NCBI GenBank assembly: GCA_905233765.1
Contig: CAJOCU010000004.1
Coordinates: forward strand, 62,001 to 126,000
Source: an uncultured Bacteroidaceae bacterium
GTDB taxonomy: Bacteria > Bacteroidota > Bacteroidia > Bacteroidales > Bacteroidaceae
Reading direction: 5' to 3'
Length of the DNA: 64,000 bases
This document shows, one piece after another, positions 1,600-6,434 of this stretch (within the stretch, counting starts at the first letter, position 1; the number at the start of each line of letters is the position of its first letter). The notes under the pieces are model-generated. The model searched no databases. It worked only from the letters and a program-made list of their open reading frames with translations, and had not been told where the DNA came from. The position numbers were made by a program, and so were the translations under genes.

Positions 1600-1633
1600 T
1601 TGACTTGACATAAAGAAATAATCGCTATCTTTG
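1600..1633 (+). promoter_or_regulatory. Bacteroidetes-type promoter (-7 TATCTTTG at 1626-1633)
   Basis: ttttgacttgacataaagaaataatcgcTATCTTTG; matches the TTTG...TAnnTTTG consensus. Confidence 0.65.
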
Positions 1634-1921
1634 TGCCCGAAAGGGCACGAATCGAGTAAAAAAACGATGGGAAAACCTCAGCGGAGGGGCCTGATCAATC
1701 TTAATGGGAATCATAGCGTTTGTGCTATATTCGATGATGTCCAAGAACCTAGGAAATTCATAAGACATCCAATGTAACGAATAAGTGCCGACGTCTACGC
1801 GATAGCGTGGACTGGACTTATCTACATGGATGGGTTTTCCTAGGACCTTTGGACATCGATAAGAGCGGTTCACGCTCTTATTGTGTCCAAAGGTTCTATG
1901 TTGAGAACCCATTATCATTCG
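1633..1921 (+). ncRNA. Candidate structured RNA / long structured leader ahead of the methyltransferase operon
   Basis: Many nested perfect or near-perfect stems (GTGCCC-GAAA-GGGCAC; GTCTACGC-GATA-GCGTGGAC; CCTTTGGACA...TGTCCAAAGG with inner ATAAGAGCG/CGCTCTTAT; GGAAAACC/GGTTTTCC). No credible ORF; begins at a promoter. Confidence 0.55.
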
Positions 1922-2070
1922 AATAGAGGTCCATTCGCTTTAAAGCTATATGCGTAAATGGATTTTTTATCAAAGAATTACAATCTGTCAACAACCCACG
2001 CTCTATACATGGGATATATCCGTATCGTGGGAAGATCGCTGCCTTAGATGCAGAGCAAATACTTTCTCAG

Positions 2071-2991
2071 ATGCCAAAAGGTAGTACTGTTCTTGATCCC
2101 TTTTGTGGTTCAGGGACAATCGTTTATGAAGGCCTGAAATATGGCTTGCATACAATTGGTATCGATGCTAATCCGATTGCTGTTACTTTGTCAAACGGAA
2201 AGATACACATCCCCTTGTCTTTCCAAGAAGTGAAAGACGAAGTTGAGTGTTTAATCAATAAAGCTAATAATCTGTCTGAGGTACCAACAGCATCAGAATA
2301 TCCTACAAGTATATTCCATGAGAAGTCTCTCAATGAAATAATGAGGATGAGTGTTCTCTATAATGAGATGTCAGATTATGTGAAAGCGTGCTATCTAGGC
2401 ACTATTGCTTTAACAGCAAGAGGATGCAATGACTACAAATGGACATCAAGTACGGTAGGGAAAAACATTGAACCTAAACGATACATACCTTTCTATGAAA
2501 AACTTCAGTTGAAAGTAAATAAACACTTCCTACCGATAGCTAATAGCAGCATGGTTTATTATGAAGACAGCAGAAATCTTGACAAAATCATCAAACCAAA
2601 TTCTGTTGACTTCATTTTTTCGAGTCCGCCATATTTCGATTGTCTTGACTATACTGCATATTATGCAAGAATTATCTACGACATTTTAGGCTACGAAAGG
2701 ATTCAAATCAGATCGCGTCTAATACAAAACTTTGAGAACTACAAAGAGGATATGAAAACTGTCCTTAACAAACTTTACGAAGTTCTCAAACCTAGTGGTC
2801 AAGTTATTTTCGTGGTAGGCGACAAGAAGATACATGGAAAGGTGATTAATGGCGCTGAATTTTTCCAAACCATAAGTCCATTCAAAAGCTATTCTATTGT
2901 AGAGCGTTCCTACTCTGGGACTAGCTCAAAAGTATTCGATGCAATTAATAAAACTGAAAGAAAGGAGCAGATTATAATATGGACAAAATAA
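2071..2991 (+). CDS. DNA methyltransferase (motif I DPFCGSGT before motif IV SSPPY); true N-terminus lies upstream, apparent frameshift
   Basis: STVLDPFCGSGTIVYEG and FIFSSPPYFDCLDYTAYY; conserved-looking residues RSIHGIYPYRGKIAALDAEQILSQ are encoded in frame upstream of the listed ATG. Confidence 0.85.
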   Translation: MPKGSTVLDPFCGSGTIVYEGLKYGLHTIGIDANPIAVTLSNGKIHIPLSFQEVKDEVECLINKANNLSEVPTASEYPTSIFHEKSLNEIMRMSVLYNEMSDYVKACYLGTIALTARGCNDYKWTSSTVGKNIEPKRYIPFYEKLQLKVNKHFLPIANSSMVYYEDSRNLDKIIKPNSVDFIFSSPPYFDCLDYTAYYARIIYDILGYERIQIRSRLIQNFENYKEDMKTVLNKLYEVLKPSGQVIFVVGDKKIHGKVINGAEFFQTISPFKSYSIVERSYSGTSSKVFDAINKTERKEQIIIWTK

Positions 2992-3821
2992 ACAAATTGA
3001 TTATAGGTGATTCATCTGTCTTCAATCATGATTCGAGTGATATGAGTGTGATACCAGATGAGAGTGTACATTTGATAATTACAAGTCCACCATATTGGAC
3101 TTTAAAAGATTATGATGTTGATGGACAGATAGGAAAAGGAAGTAGCTCTTATGACTATTACCTAAGTGAATTGAATAAGGTATGGAAAGAATGCGTCCGC
3201 GTTTTGGTACCAGACGGAAAAATTTGCATAAATATCATGCCGTTCCTTCTCACTGGTAAAGCTGCAAGATTTGACAGAAGAGAAACCAGATTGGTGTTGG
3301 GCGATATAGAATCGTTCATGAATACAACAGGGTGTATGTATCAATTTGGATTGTACATCTGGGATAAAAGAAAGATTGCAAGATTTAGTTCATTTGGGAG
3401 CTATCCCTATCCACCAAATATTTTCTCTACTTATCCTTACGAATGGATTACGGTTTTCTCAAAAGAGGGGAAGCGTAAACCGGTTCCTAAAGAAATAAAA
3501 GAGAAGTCGAAGCTTACGACAGAAGAATGGCAAAAGTGGGCCATCAATTCTATATGGGAAATGCAACCTGCAAAGGCAAAATCAGAAGGTCATCCTGCTC
3601 CGTTCCCCAAAGAGCTTCCCATGCGTCTAATTAAACTATATAGTTTTTGGGGAGACACTGTATTAGACCCATTTGCTGGAACGGGAACAACACTTTTAGC
3701 GGCTCAAGAACTTGGACGTAAATCCATCGGCTTTGAGTTGAATCCAGAGTATATAAAGCTCATAAAGAATAAACTTTCCCCTATAATTTCCCAACAATGC
3801 CTATTTACAGAGGAAACATAA
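2979..3821 (+). CDS. DNA methyltransferase, beta-type motif order (TSPPYW first, DPFAGTGTT second)
   Basis: LIITSPPYWTLKDY ... VLDPFAGTGTTLLAAQELGRKSIGFELNPEYI. Confidence 0.9.
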   Translation: MDKINKLIIGDSSVFNHDSSDMSVIPDESVHLIITSPPYWTLKDYDVDGQIGKGSSSYDYYLSELNKVWKECVRVLVPDGKICINIMPFLLTGKAARFDRRETRLVLGDIESFMNTTGCMYQFGLYIWDKRKIARFSSFGSYPYPPNIFSTYPYEWITVFSKEGKRKPVPKEIKEKSKLTTEEWQKWAINSIWEMQPAKAKSEGHPAPFPKELPMRLIKLYSFWGDTVLDPFAGTGTTLLAAQELGRKSIGFELNPEYIKLIKNKLSPIISQQCLFTEET

Positions 3822-4240
3822 ATAGTACACTAGCTTCAATTGTAACTAACTCGTCAGACGGTGAGGAAAAACAATTCTTTTATCACATACCATGCAAGAA
3901 AGAGTTGGACTCGCTAGTGTATTTTGCCAGCAACATTGAGTCGAAAAACCGTTCTGTGTTTATACGAGTAAACTATGAATGGGAGTACGGTTTGAGGGCA
4001 AGGAGAATAGATTTGGTTTCAAAGGAAGCAAATACTATCACCTTATATAAGAAGTCGACAAAGTTTTCAACAGACAGTAATGCTATAGATCTTTCTCGAC
4101 TTAAAGAAAGTGTTACTGATTCTTTCCCTAACGTGAACGTCAAGTGTATGCTTTTATTTTCCGAAGCAATCGAAGAACAGAGTATACGTCAGACATTAGA
4201 TTCTTTAAAACTTGATGTGGGATTTCTGATAATATTGTAA
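3797..4240 (+). CDS. Hypothetical protein in restriction-modification-like operon
   Basis: 147-aa ORF overlapping the end of the second methyltransferase and abutting the next gene; same strand. Confidence 0.65.
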   Translation: MPIYRGNINSTLASIVTNSSDGEEKQFFYHIPCKKELDSLVYFASNIESKNRSVFIRVNYEWEYGLRARRIDLVSKEANTITLYKKSTKFSTDSNAIDLSRLKESVTDSFPNVNVKCMLLFSEAIEEQSIRQTLDSLKLDVGFLIIL

Positions 4241-4242
4241 TT

Positions 4243-5418
4243 ATGGCATTTCTAATCAATCGTACTGCAGCAGCCAGAATTGAATGTTTGCATGCACTCG
4301 CCTTGTTAATTGTGGAGAAGTTTGGCACATACGGGAAACCATTCAATCTTAAGGATGTTAAGTTTGACCGTAATGCCGTCAACATCCACCAATATTGTAC
4401 ATTGCTCAAAGAGGACGATTTAGTTGGTAAGTATTGTCGGTTTAAAGAAAATCCGCTTGATGATGCTGGATGCTCCATCACAAATGGGGTACTAAGCGAC
4501 ACAACAAAGTCAAAAGAAGTTAGCAACACAATAAATGCAATGCACGCACTTGGCTTTGTTGAACGAGTAGGAAGAAAGGTCAGAATAACATCTTTTGGCG
4601 TTAGGTTTGCTAAAGCTAAATACGGAACTGGTGATATGCAGGCAATCATTAAAAAAGCTGTTTTGAATTATGGCCCAGTTGTCGGTGTAATGTATGGCCT
4701 ATCAAAATATAACCCTGGTGACACCTTTAATGTTAGTGAGATAAATGTTGGGTATCCATCCCCAACTGAATTTGTAGAATATAATGGATCAATGGTAGAA
4801 CTCTCTGCAGGCTCCACGCAGGATTCAAACACAAGAACAAAATCGTGTATATTAGCTTGGCTGACTCAGGGAGGTTATATCAAGCCTGTTCATTTTACGC
4901 CATCAGATTCCCCATATCCACATGTAGCTTACCGTGATTATATTAATAGCGAACATCGGATGGGACAGTTGTATGAAATAGTAGATTTCCCAAATACCGA
5001 GATAACAGATAGACCTCTCAACTATGACAATCTTACAAAAATGAATTTCTGTCTTAGGGAGAATGGGCAATCTGTTGTCCGTGAAGCGACGATGTATTAC
5101 GAAACAAAAATCAAAAATCGTCGATTTGCTATTCTTTTCCTTCTTAATCTTGCTTTTCAAAACAAAACCGCAGTTGCATTAAGCGATATCATAGATGTCT
5201 TGAAAGAAGATAAAAGTAAATTTGTGGTTTCTGAAGAGGATTTGGAAGAAACCATCTCGACTGAGATAGAGATTGCTTTCATGGCAGGAATACCATATGT
5301 AGGACGATATATGAACGGGAAACTATATCTACAACCGACAAAAGGGCTTAATTTAAAAGAGTTGGAGGAAGGTGCTCCTCAAGAAGTCATAAACTTTCTA
5401 AACCAATATAGCTATTAA
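4243..5418 (+). CDS. Hypothetical protein, possible winged-helix/DNA-recognition subunit
   Basis: 391-aa ORF in the same compact operon; helical segments such as TINAMHALGFVERVGRKVRITSFGVRFAKAKYG look like a winged-helix unit. Confidence 0.7.
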   Translation: MAFLINRTAAARIECLHALALLIVEKFGTYGKPFNLKDVKFDRNAVNIHQYCTLLKEDDLVGKYCRFKENPLDDAGCSITNGVLSDTTKSKEVSNTINAMHALGFVERVGRKVRITSFGVRFAKAKYGTGDMQAIIKKAVLNYGPVVGVMYGLSKYNPGDTFNVSEINVGYPSPTEFVEYNGSMVELSAGSTQDSNTRTKSCILAWLTQGGYIKPVHFTPSDSPYPHVAYRDYINSEHRMGQLYEIVDFPNTEITDRPLNYDNLTKMNFCLRENGQSVVREATMYYETKIKNRRFAILFLLNLAFQNKTAVALSDIIDVLKEDKSKFVVSEEDLEETISTEIEIAFMAGIPYVGRYMNGKLYLQPTKGLNLKELEEGAPQEVINFLNQYSY

Positions 5419-6434
5419 TGGGCAAGTTTTGTTTATACGCAGACAACCGGCTTGATGCCCCTTGTGCTTTTTTACAAATGTACAAATATTCGTATCTTAC
5501 TCATTTTATAGATGACGAAAGACATAGTAAGGGTAAATCATCACATAGCGTTCCATTATTGGTTAGTTGCTTAAAGAATGGCGAAGACACGGTTAGTAGG
5601 TTCACTGTTAAAGATGAGTGCTGCATTAATTGTATGTTTTGTGTCTTCGGTTGTGTGGGAAACAGAATTCTTTTAACAAATAGATTCCACCCGAAAAAGT
5701 TTTGTTATGACATCACAACAGAAGAACTGTCAGAATTAGAGAAGACTGCACAGAAACTATTCAAAGGCACATTCATTCAATTACCCAAAGTCCCAATTAG
5801 TCAATTATCTGTAAAATATAAAAGTTTTGAATCATTTACAGCTGTCGATGAAACCAAGAATATTGCCGTTTGGACAGCAAATGTTATGAAATTCCTCAGC
5901 ACGTCTCTTGAACCACGTCTTTCTTTAGAGGTCGGTTTGCGTATTTATCAAAGAGATAGAGGAGGAAGATTAGATGTAAGCCTACTAAACACAAGGGATA
6001 AGTTTCTTTTTGTAGCAGAAACAAAAGTAGACTTCAACCACATGATGGCAGAAGGCCGATATGAGTCTCAGATGATTGCCTATGAGACTGAGTTGGAGCA
6101 AGTTGACAACGGCATTAAGCGAGCCAAGTTTTTGGTCATTGGAGGTCGCGAATGTGATCTGCTTCCGTCTTCAGTAAGAGGTGCTACTTCAGGTCCACGT
6201 GCAGATTTGTTTTATAGTGTTCTGCGCAAACAAAATTTGTTCTTCTTCTCAGCAAATGCCTTGCTTGCACTCGGTTTACAGAAGTTGTATATTTCAATCA
6301 ATAAATATTCGTTAGAGTCTCTATATCCTATTATCAATCACAAGAACTTTGTTGGTCTTTTATCTTCTGGTGTAGTTTCTACAGACGGAAGGATTATAGC
6401 CTTAGATGAAGCTCTACAACTGGTAAATCAGTAG
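5418..6434 (+). CDS. Putative PD-(D/E)XK nuclease with N-terminal CxxCxxCxxxC motif
   Basis: LEVGLRIYQRDRGGRLDVSLLNTRDKFLFVAETKVDF (D...ExK) and CCINCMFCVFGC; start overlaps stop of previous gene (TAATG). Confidence 0.65.
   Translation: MGKFCLYADNRLDAPCAFLQMYKYSYLTHFIDDERHSKGKSSHSVPLLVSCLKNGEDTVSRFTVKDECCINCMFCVFGCVGNRILLTNRFHPKKFCYDITTEELSELEKTAQKLFKGTFIQLPKVPISQLSVKYKSFESFTAVDETKNIAVWTANVMKFLSTSLEPRLSLEVGLRIYQRDRGGRLDVSLLNTRDKFLFVAETKVDFNHMMAEGRYESQMIAYETELEQVDNGIKRAKFLVIGGRECDLLPSSVRGATSGPRADLFYSVLRKQNLFFFSANALLALGLQKLYISINKYSLESLYPIINHKNFVGLLSSGVVSTDGRIIALDEALQLVNQ

Follow-up and report, generated by a model that had tools for sequence, protein, structure and literature searches.

A covarying 5' leader RNA family of Bacteroidia, found ahead of a DNA methyltransferase operon and resembling an attenuator-type switch

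The DNA analyzed here, referred to as the window, is a stretch of 64,000 nucleotides (nt) from an uncultured Bacteroidaceae bacterium (NCBI GenBank assembly GCA_905233765.1, contig CAJOCU010000004.1, positions 62,001 to 126,000 of the forward strand). Close to its start lies an operon that opens with two DNA methyltransferase genes, and immediately upstream of this operon is an RNA of about 290 nt with dense internal pairing (Table 1). A sequence-only reading of the window had offered two interpretations of this RNA, either a leader with a regulatory role or one of the island's own components. We find that this RNA, from 1637 to about 1925, forms the 5' leader of the operon's mRNA and represents one copy of a structured-RNA family which is spread through the class Bacteroidia, with gut and rumen bacteria as hosts. 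It is close to certain that this is a family of cis leaders without an Rfam entry.

The fold of the window RNA is considerably more stable than that of its shuffled counterparts. RNAfold gave the region 1620-1925 a folding energy of -122.9 kcal/mol, compared with -78.2 +/- 5.7 for dinucleotide shuffles (z -7.8, 0 of 100 shuffles), and homologues also differed from their shuffles (z -6.2 for L002, -7.3 for L008, -3.9 for L009 and -7.9 for L004). The opposite strand of the same stretch scores in this test as well (z -5.9). Rfam 15, which includes models for group I and group II introns, riboswitches, Flavo-1, Bacteroidales-1 and tmRNA, produced no match at the gathering score in the window or in 20 relatives. 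With a relaxed threshold (E<=5) the window gave chance-level matches only, as did the RNA in relatives that were searched laxly, and ARAGORN did not detect tRNA or tmRNA in the window.

The core of the RNA is a conserved structure with compensatory changes beyond those of both shuffled and slid controls. It was modeled as R1, a covariance model of the 132-nt core (window 1728-1859) built from 18 sequences. In an alignment of 83 distinct sequences, 92.0% of the cells are paired compared with 69.2% after shuffling, compensatory (two-sided) changes occur in 38 of 42 pairs, and the covariation score is 0.608 compared with 0.193. None of 500 shuffles reached the observed values for pairing, two-sided changes or covariation, and sliding the partners by 1-3 columns reduced pairing to 30-42%. 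Since this alignment was fitted to R1, it leans towards the model; an 18-sequence MAFFT alignment, which is not model-fitted, gave 81.8% paired compared with 70.2%, and two-sided changes in 30 of 44 pairs. Hence, the proposal of a structured RNA outside the known families was borne out by the folding excess, the covariation and the lack of an Rfam 15 match. The promoter element and the dense pairing were found where they had been placed, and none of the three outcomes named beforehand as speaking against the proposal (no folding excess, no covariation, a clear Rfam match) occurred.

Table 1. Features of the leader and the downstream operon, with positions in the window.
Feature	Position	Strand	Basis and remarks
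TATCTTTG, Bacteroidota -7 promoter element (TAnnTTTG)	1626-1633	+	sequence
Variable 5' domain with hairpin CCUC-AGCG-GAGG (1676-1687)	1640-1710	+	several sequence types among copies
Hairpin ATAGC/GCTAT, AGCGUUnGCU type, just 5' of core	1713-1728	+	128 of 173 copies, 31 of 40 weaker members
Conserved core (model R1)	1728-1859	+	covariation, R1 search
Helix PA, 5' strand GATGTCCAA	1736-1744	+	pairs with 1849-1857; 7 of 7 main pairs two-sided; 96.7% paired in 83 sequences
Helix PB, 5' strand CCTAGGAAA	1748-1756	+	pairs with 1836-1844; 9 of 9 pairs two-sided; 91% paired
Helix PC, 5' strand	1766-1776	+	pairs with 1823-1832; 9 of 9 modeled pairs two-sided
Helix PC2, 5' strand ATAAGT	1781-1786	+	pairs with 1816-1821; 95.6% paired
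Helix PC3, 5' arm GTCTACGC	1793-1800	+	pairs with central strand 1805-1812; 100% paired
Central strand GCGTGGAC	1805-1812	+	pairs with 5' arm; could alternatively pair with 3' arm
Helix PB, 3' strand TTTCCTAGG	1836-1844	+	covariation
Hairpin PD, ACCTTTGGACA (1845-1855) with TGTCCAAAGGT (1884-1894)	1845-1894	+	would compete with PA
Helix PA, 3' strand TTGGACATC	1849-1857	+	covariation
Terminator-like local hairpin ATAAGAGCG-GTTCA-CGCTCTTAT	1859-1881	+	U-rich TCTTATT, weak in window copy
3' arm GTTCACGC	1868-1875	+	complementary to central strand, 7.5 of 8 (G-U counted half)
First operon gene, N6/N4 DNA methyltransferase	1927-2991	+	Pfam PF01555 (1.3e-15); no in-frame start before 2071
Second DNA methyltransferase	2979-3821	+	Pfam PF01555
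Three more operon genes, no family assigned	3797-6434 (3797-4240, 4243-5418, 5418-6434)	+	frames, Pfam search

Several of the stems read from the window alone are present and kept by relatives, namely ATAGC/GCTAT (1713-1728), ATAAGT/ACTTAT with GTCTACGC/GCGTGGAC, and CCTTTGGACA/TGTCCAAAGG. Others are better described differently. The pairing CCTAGGAAA/TTTCCTAGG, which had been regarded as a competitor, is instead a true covarying core helix (PB). The local hairpin GATGTC/GACATC is not kept (GATGTC..GACACC in L017, AATGTC..GACAAC in L019); its 5' strand pairs with 1849-1857 in helix PA and not with the local GACATC. The suggested multibranch closure by GGAAAACC/GGTTTTCC is not kept either, and L002 has GGAAAACC without its partner. 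The hairpin GTGCCC/GGGCAC (1633-1648) is present, but it overlaps the promoter and the expected start site and is therefore probably not entirely within the transcript. In the 5' domain of many copies CCTnAGCGnAGG was seen by eye, and a strict pattern is found in 52 of 173. A group I intron was also considered, as the 3' end of some copies (L022, L027) carries AAGATATAGTC-like letters resembling the intron S element. This was rejected, given that no Rfam intron model matches and that the pairing partner of these letters lies immediately 5' of PA. The letters GCGUGG and GUCCACGC (window 1868-1875 and 1805-1812) are likewise opposite each other in helix 24 of 16S rRNA, a likeness that is probably due to chance.

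The position of the RNA relative to promoters and genes is similar across the family. Of 173 copies, 160 carry a TAnnTTTG element on the RNA strand no more than 220 nt upstream of the core, in most cases at a distance of 40-140 nt, compared with 32 that have one on the opposite strand. The element is also present in 36 of 40 weaker members. In the window, transcription presumably starts at about 1637-1641, as judged from general knowledge of Bacteroides promoters. Among mechanically called open reading frames, a long frame on the same strand starts 65-110 nt after the core in most copies (median 83 nt, 155 copies), and a second promoter in the gap between core and gene occurs in 2 of 188 copies (8 on the opposite strand). 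With a promoter of its own, a close downstream frame and no second promoter in between, the RNA is a 5' leader, and the genes behind it seem to depend on transcription through it. Together with the covariation, this supports the first of the two earlier interpretations. The same data bear on whether the RNA could be an independent small RNA of about 200 nt that acts in trans and is merely located ahead of genes. Such an RNA would be expected to have its own promoter and terminator, and the promoter as well as the terminator-like end in most restriction-linked copies agree with this. However, the genes behind it lack their own promoter in the gap, and their distance from the RNA is almost constant. 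Orphan copies are rare, and several divergent copies per genome are unlike one trans-acting RNA. We therefore find a separate small RNA quite improbable.

A BLASTN search for relatives identified a second, partial copy in the same genome and further copies in other genomes. Where the full RNA is present, it is followed by a same-strand open frame, and these frames are largely unrelated to one another. Matches to R1 were found in at least 193 of 301 genomes of the window's family, at least 99 of 290 genomes of the order and at least 23 of 297 genomes of the phylum, with at least up to about 11 copies in one genome. These counts are lower bounds, as 11 candidates per genome were scored in the large searches, and the E-values come from a briefly calibrated model. 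When a degenerate inner-hairpin pattern was run over GTDB genomes, all 80 of the matches listed were in Bacteroidota, and all 80 stretches also score with R1; the loci among them belong to Prevotella, Bacteroides, Alloprevotella, Paludibacteraceae and one Flavobacterium. The same pattern had no exact match in viral contigs, and no DNA similarity to phage and plasmid records was found. In open PubMed Central text we found no description of the leader.

Two divergent relatives, L004 (1240-1572, minus strand) and L037, have the same 5' domain CTCAGCGGAGG and a rearranged core, and are followed by a DEDD-exonuclease-like gene and an EcoRI-type methylase. As they are not among the R1 matches listed, the family is probably wider than counted. 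In L270, a DUF805 RNA (RF03081, a cis-regulatory candidate; 704-773) lies directly 3' of one copy, so that the two form tandem leader elements. Many copies (L252-L263, in G174, G016, G070, G147 and G079) are located 200-500 nt from contig ends, where near-identical copies or flanking repeats may break assemblies. A mobile element was considered for these copies and rejected, as the genes behind them are ordinary secreted-protein genes.

The second copy in the window's genome (L002; G000:C4:129013-129122, minus strand) is found about 65 kb from the window copy, in inverse orientation and ahead of a type IIG enzyme gene. The two are 92% identical over the first 110 nt and diverge afterwards, as if the 5' ends of leaders recombine. 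This likeness within one genome, and highly identical leaders ahead of unrelated genes elsewhere, might suggest a mobile or recombining DNA hairpin module, such as a cassette boundary, in which the structure is relevant as DNA. However, the copies sit between promoter and gene start, the homologues diverge without common ends, and the compensatory changes in the core include G-U pairs. A DNA module is thus the least probable of the explanations we considered, and we give it very little weight.

The genes behind the leader differ between parts of the family. In the set nearest the window copy, clustering and family searches identified restriction-modification or other defence genes downstream of 66 of 97 copies. 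These include EcoRI-type adenine methylases (18), SNF2/PLD helicases (14), N-6 methylases that are mostly HsdM (10), a second type II methylase family (6), MmeI-type IIG enzymes (5), type III Mod (4) and two further IIG enzymes, and the count is completed by the window's own operon and by D12, Dcm, Hhe, HsdR-like and HsdM genes that occur once or twice each. Most of the other copies among the 97 are followed by genes for secreted or envelope proteins (PAP2, acyltransferases, LRR proteins, lipoproteins). As the copies were chosen by similarity, these shares are not free of bias. Behind 40 weaker members from the same bacterial family there are almost no restriction genes but mostly secreted or accessory genes, and in distant orders the RNA mainly precedes secreted-protein genes. 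The restriction link therefore belongs to the sub-lineage nearest the window copy, and a restriction-specific function for the whole family was rejected in view of the genes downstream of the weaker members. No ortholog of the window methylase was found among 250 relatives at E<=1e-30, which fits a leader common to unrelated cassettes. This lack of an ortholog, and the presence of the same RNA ahead of many unrelated genes across Bacteroidia, leave the interpretation as an RNA component of the island weak.

The same diversity argues against a metabolite riboswitch with a single ligand, which would be a special case of a cis-acting switch with the core as aptamer and the 3' part as a variable expression platform. 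Although riboswitches typically combine a conserved core with divergent 3' platforms, as seen here, the downstream genes (methylases, helicases, lipoproteins, acyltransferases, TPR and LRR proteins) have no common pathway. In addition, most core positions vary freely as long as pairing is kept, and the best-conserved stretches are the paired arms. A riboswitch of this kind therefore seems unlikely.

The part of the leader that follows the core contains sequences that could pair in more than one way. The 3' arm is found 5-17 nt after PA and is nearly identical to the 5' arm of PC3. Among 181 copies, 94% show complementarity of this arm to the central strand at 6 or more of 8 positions (shuffles 24%), and 91% have four or more T in six positions after it (shuffles 13%). 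Both features, with complementarity of at least 6.5 of 8, are combined in 70% of the 181 copies compared with 1.2% in shuffles. In several copies the 3' arm and its central-strand partner change together (GCGTAGGC/GCCTACGC and GCATAGGC/GTCTATGC), and the arm is retained in the 40 weaker members (85% compared with 23%). Of 188 copies, 149 have a T-run of at least 4 no more than 45 nt from the core. In Bacteroidaceae, the local terminator-like hairpin uses the 3' strand of PA (z 14-22 against shuffles), as in L177 (GGGCATGGA..TCCATGCC-TTTTTT), and the PD extension excludes PA (z 20-26 against shuffles in Bacteroidaceae sets). Judged from complementarity, the central strand would thus have two mutually exclusive partners, and PA and PD would likewise exclude each other.

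The core, the 3' arm, the U-run and the relation of PA to PD fit an attenuator-type switch, and on sequence grounds attenuation by the leader is likely. More specifically, we consider it fairly probable that the window leader acts in cis as such a switch, which is set by a signal and has transcription termination or another step as its output. In the first state, the 5' strands would zip with the strands that follow into the long arm PA-PB-PC-PC2-PC3. In the second state, the 3' arm, being a repeat of the 5' arm sequence, would compete for the central strand, and the 3' strand of PA would be drawn into the terminator-like hairpin and the PD extension. RNA polymerase would read through into the operon as long as the core holds, and transcription would stop when it does not. 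In copies with a weak U-run, such as that of the window, expression might instead be limited at another step. The output would then be changeable on a conserved core, with termination where the U-run is clean and perhaps translation elsewhere, and a cellular signal would set the balance between the two states. That non-homologous genes share the leader is in favor of such a switch.

Some observations do not agree with this proposal. PD and the local terminator hairpin are absent in distant Bacteroidia, and at least 4 T in 6 positions after the arm are found in only about half of the 40 weaker members. The window copy has TCTTATTG after the arm and no clean U-run, and genes as diverse as those downstream do not point to a single ligand. 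Moreover, when transcripts cut at the U-run are folded at equilibrium by free energy, the long arm wins, PA and the local hairpin partly coexist, and the central strand never pairs with the 3' arm. This second state would therefore need a trigger or a kinetic route.

An alternative is that the leader controls translation or mRNA stability rather than termination. The fold would then gate the start-codon region, and the U-rich stretch would be incidental; many weaker members lack it, and that of the window copy is weak. Many copies have a hairpin at the start codon, e.g., CATACGC..GCGTATG in EcoRI-type methylase copies (by eye), and in distant clades a GGGACU strand that precedes the start codon pairs with the 3' arm (z 4.8). 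However, named Bacteroidaceae copies do not have this pairing (z -0.5), and we rejected it as a general feature as it is confined to the distant clades. U-runs are also present in most restriction-linked copies and strongly enriched in that class. Taken together, translation or stability control is a possible explanation, though a doubtful one. The family could also be a class-wide Bacteroidia RNA switch which answers one common cue (e.g., stress or phage attack). One lineage of it would have become the standard leader of restriction-modification and other anti-phage genes, and the unrelated defence operons behind it would make up a regulon under RNA control. We put this forward tentatively, and would be somewhat surprised if it held in full.

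Two genes of the window operon have features of their own. A coding-like stretch, PRSIHGIYPYRGKIAALDAEQ, lies upstream of the first in-frame ATG of the first methyltransferase (window 1927-2071), and the ATG that follows the leader most closely (1950) belongs to a different frame. The missing early ATG could reflect an assembly error, the use of a non-standard start, or a frameshift close to the short T run at about 1961-1966. The last operon gene (5418-6434) has no Pfam match, and a possible PD-(D/E)XK nuclease motif, DVSLLNTRDKFLFVAETK, was seen in it by eye, making it a candidate restriction enzyme.

Restriction-modification genes need careful tuning, and their known control is mostly by C proteins, methylase feedback and antisense RNA. 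The leader described here is structured, has multiple copies and no Rfam entry, and is carried by roughly two in three genomes sampled from the window's family (Prevotella and relatives). Its enrichment ahead of unrelated defence operons in one lineage would represent a previously unassigned control layer, which would cover defence and surface genes of gut and rumen bacteria.

Compared with known systems, the window family resembles the trp and erm attenuator leaders in having competing strands in a 5' leader and a terminator-like hairpin with a U-run before the gene. It differs from them in that the core is far larger and more ornate, and in that it precedes unrelated accessory genes. Furthermore, no conserved leader peptide was noticed, although no systematic test was made (visual inspection of the window gave one frame of 36 codons, 1667-1777, for which L002 lacks a start codon). 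Transcriptional "on" riboswitches likewise have a covarying core and a closing helix, here PA, that overlaps the 5' arm of a terminator-like hairpin, but the window family has no known ligand, and its downstream genes have no common metabolic pathway. Flavo-1 and Bacteroidales-1/Bacteroides-1 are structured candidate RNAs of Bacteroidetes without known function (PMC2864571), and matches to Flavo-1 are reported in 5' transcribed regions (PMC9723704). They are RNAs of the same general sort; however, the models of Flavo-1 and the other motifs of that study that were entered in Rfam match no copy tested. Candidate cis RNAs from the human microbiome include many unassigned Bacteroidetes motifs, and the main text of that report does not mention restriction or methyltransferase genes (PMC8040213). 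Some of these motifs may overlap the window family, which was compared with them at the level of the main text. Finally, the EcoRI and Eco29kI restriction-modification genes are controlled by antisense RNA from reverse promoters (reviewed in PMC3874152). The window family agrees with these in that restriction-modification genes are placed under RNA-level control, whereas the RNA in question is a 5' leader on the sense strand.
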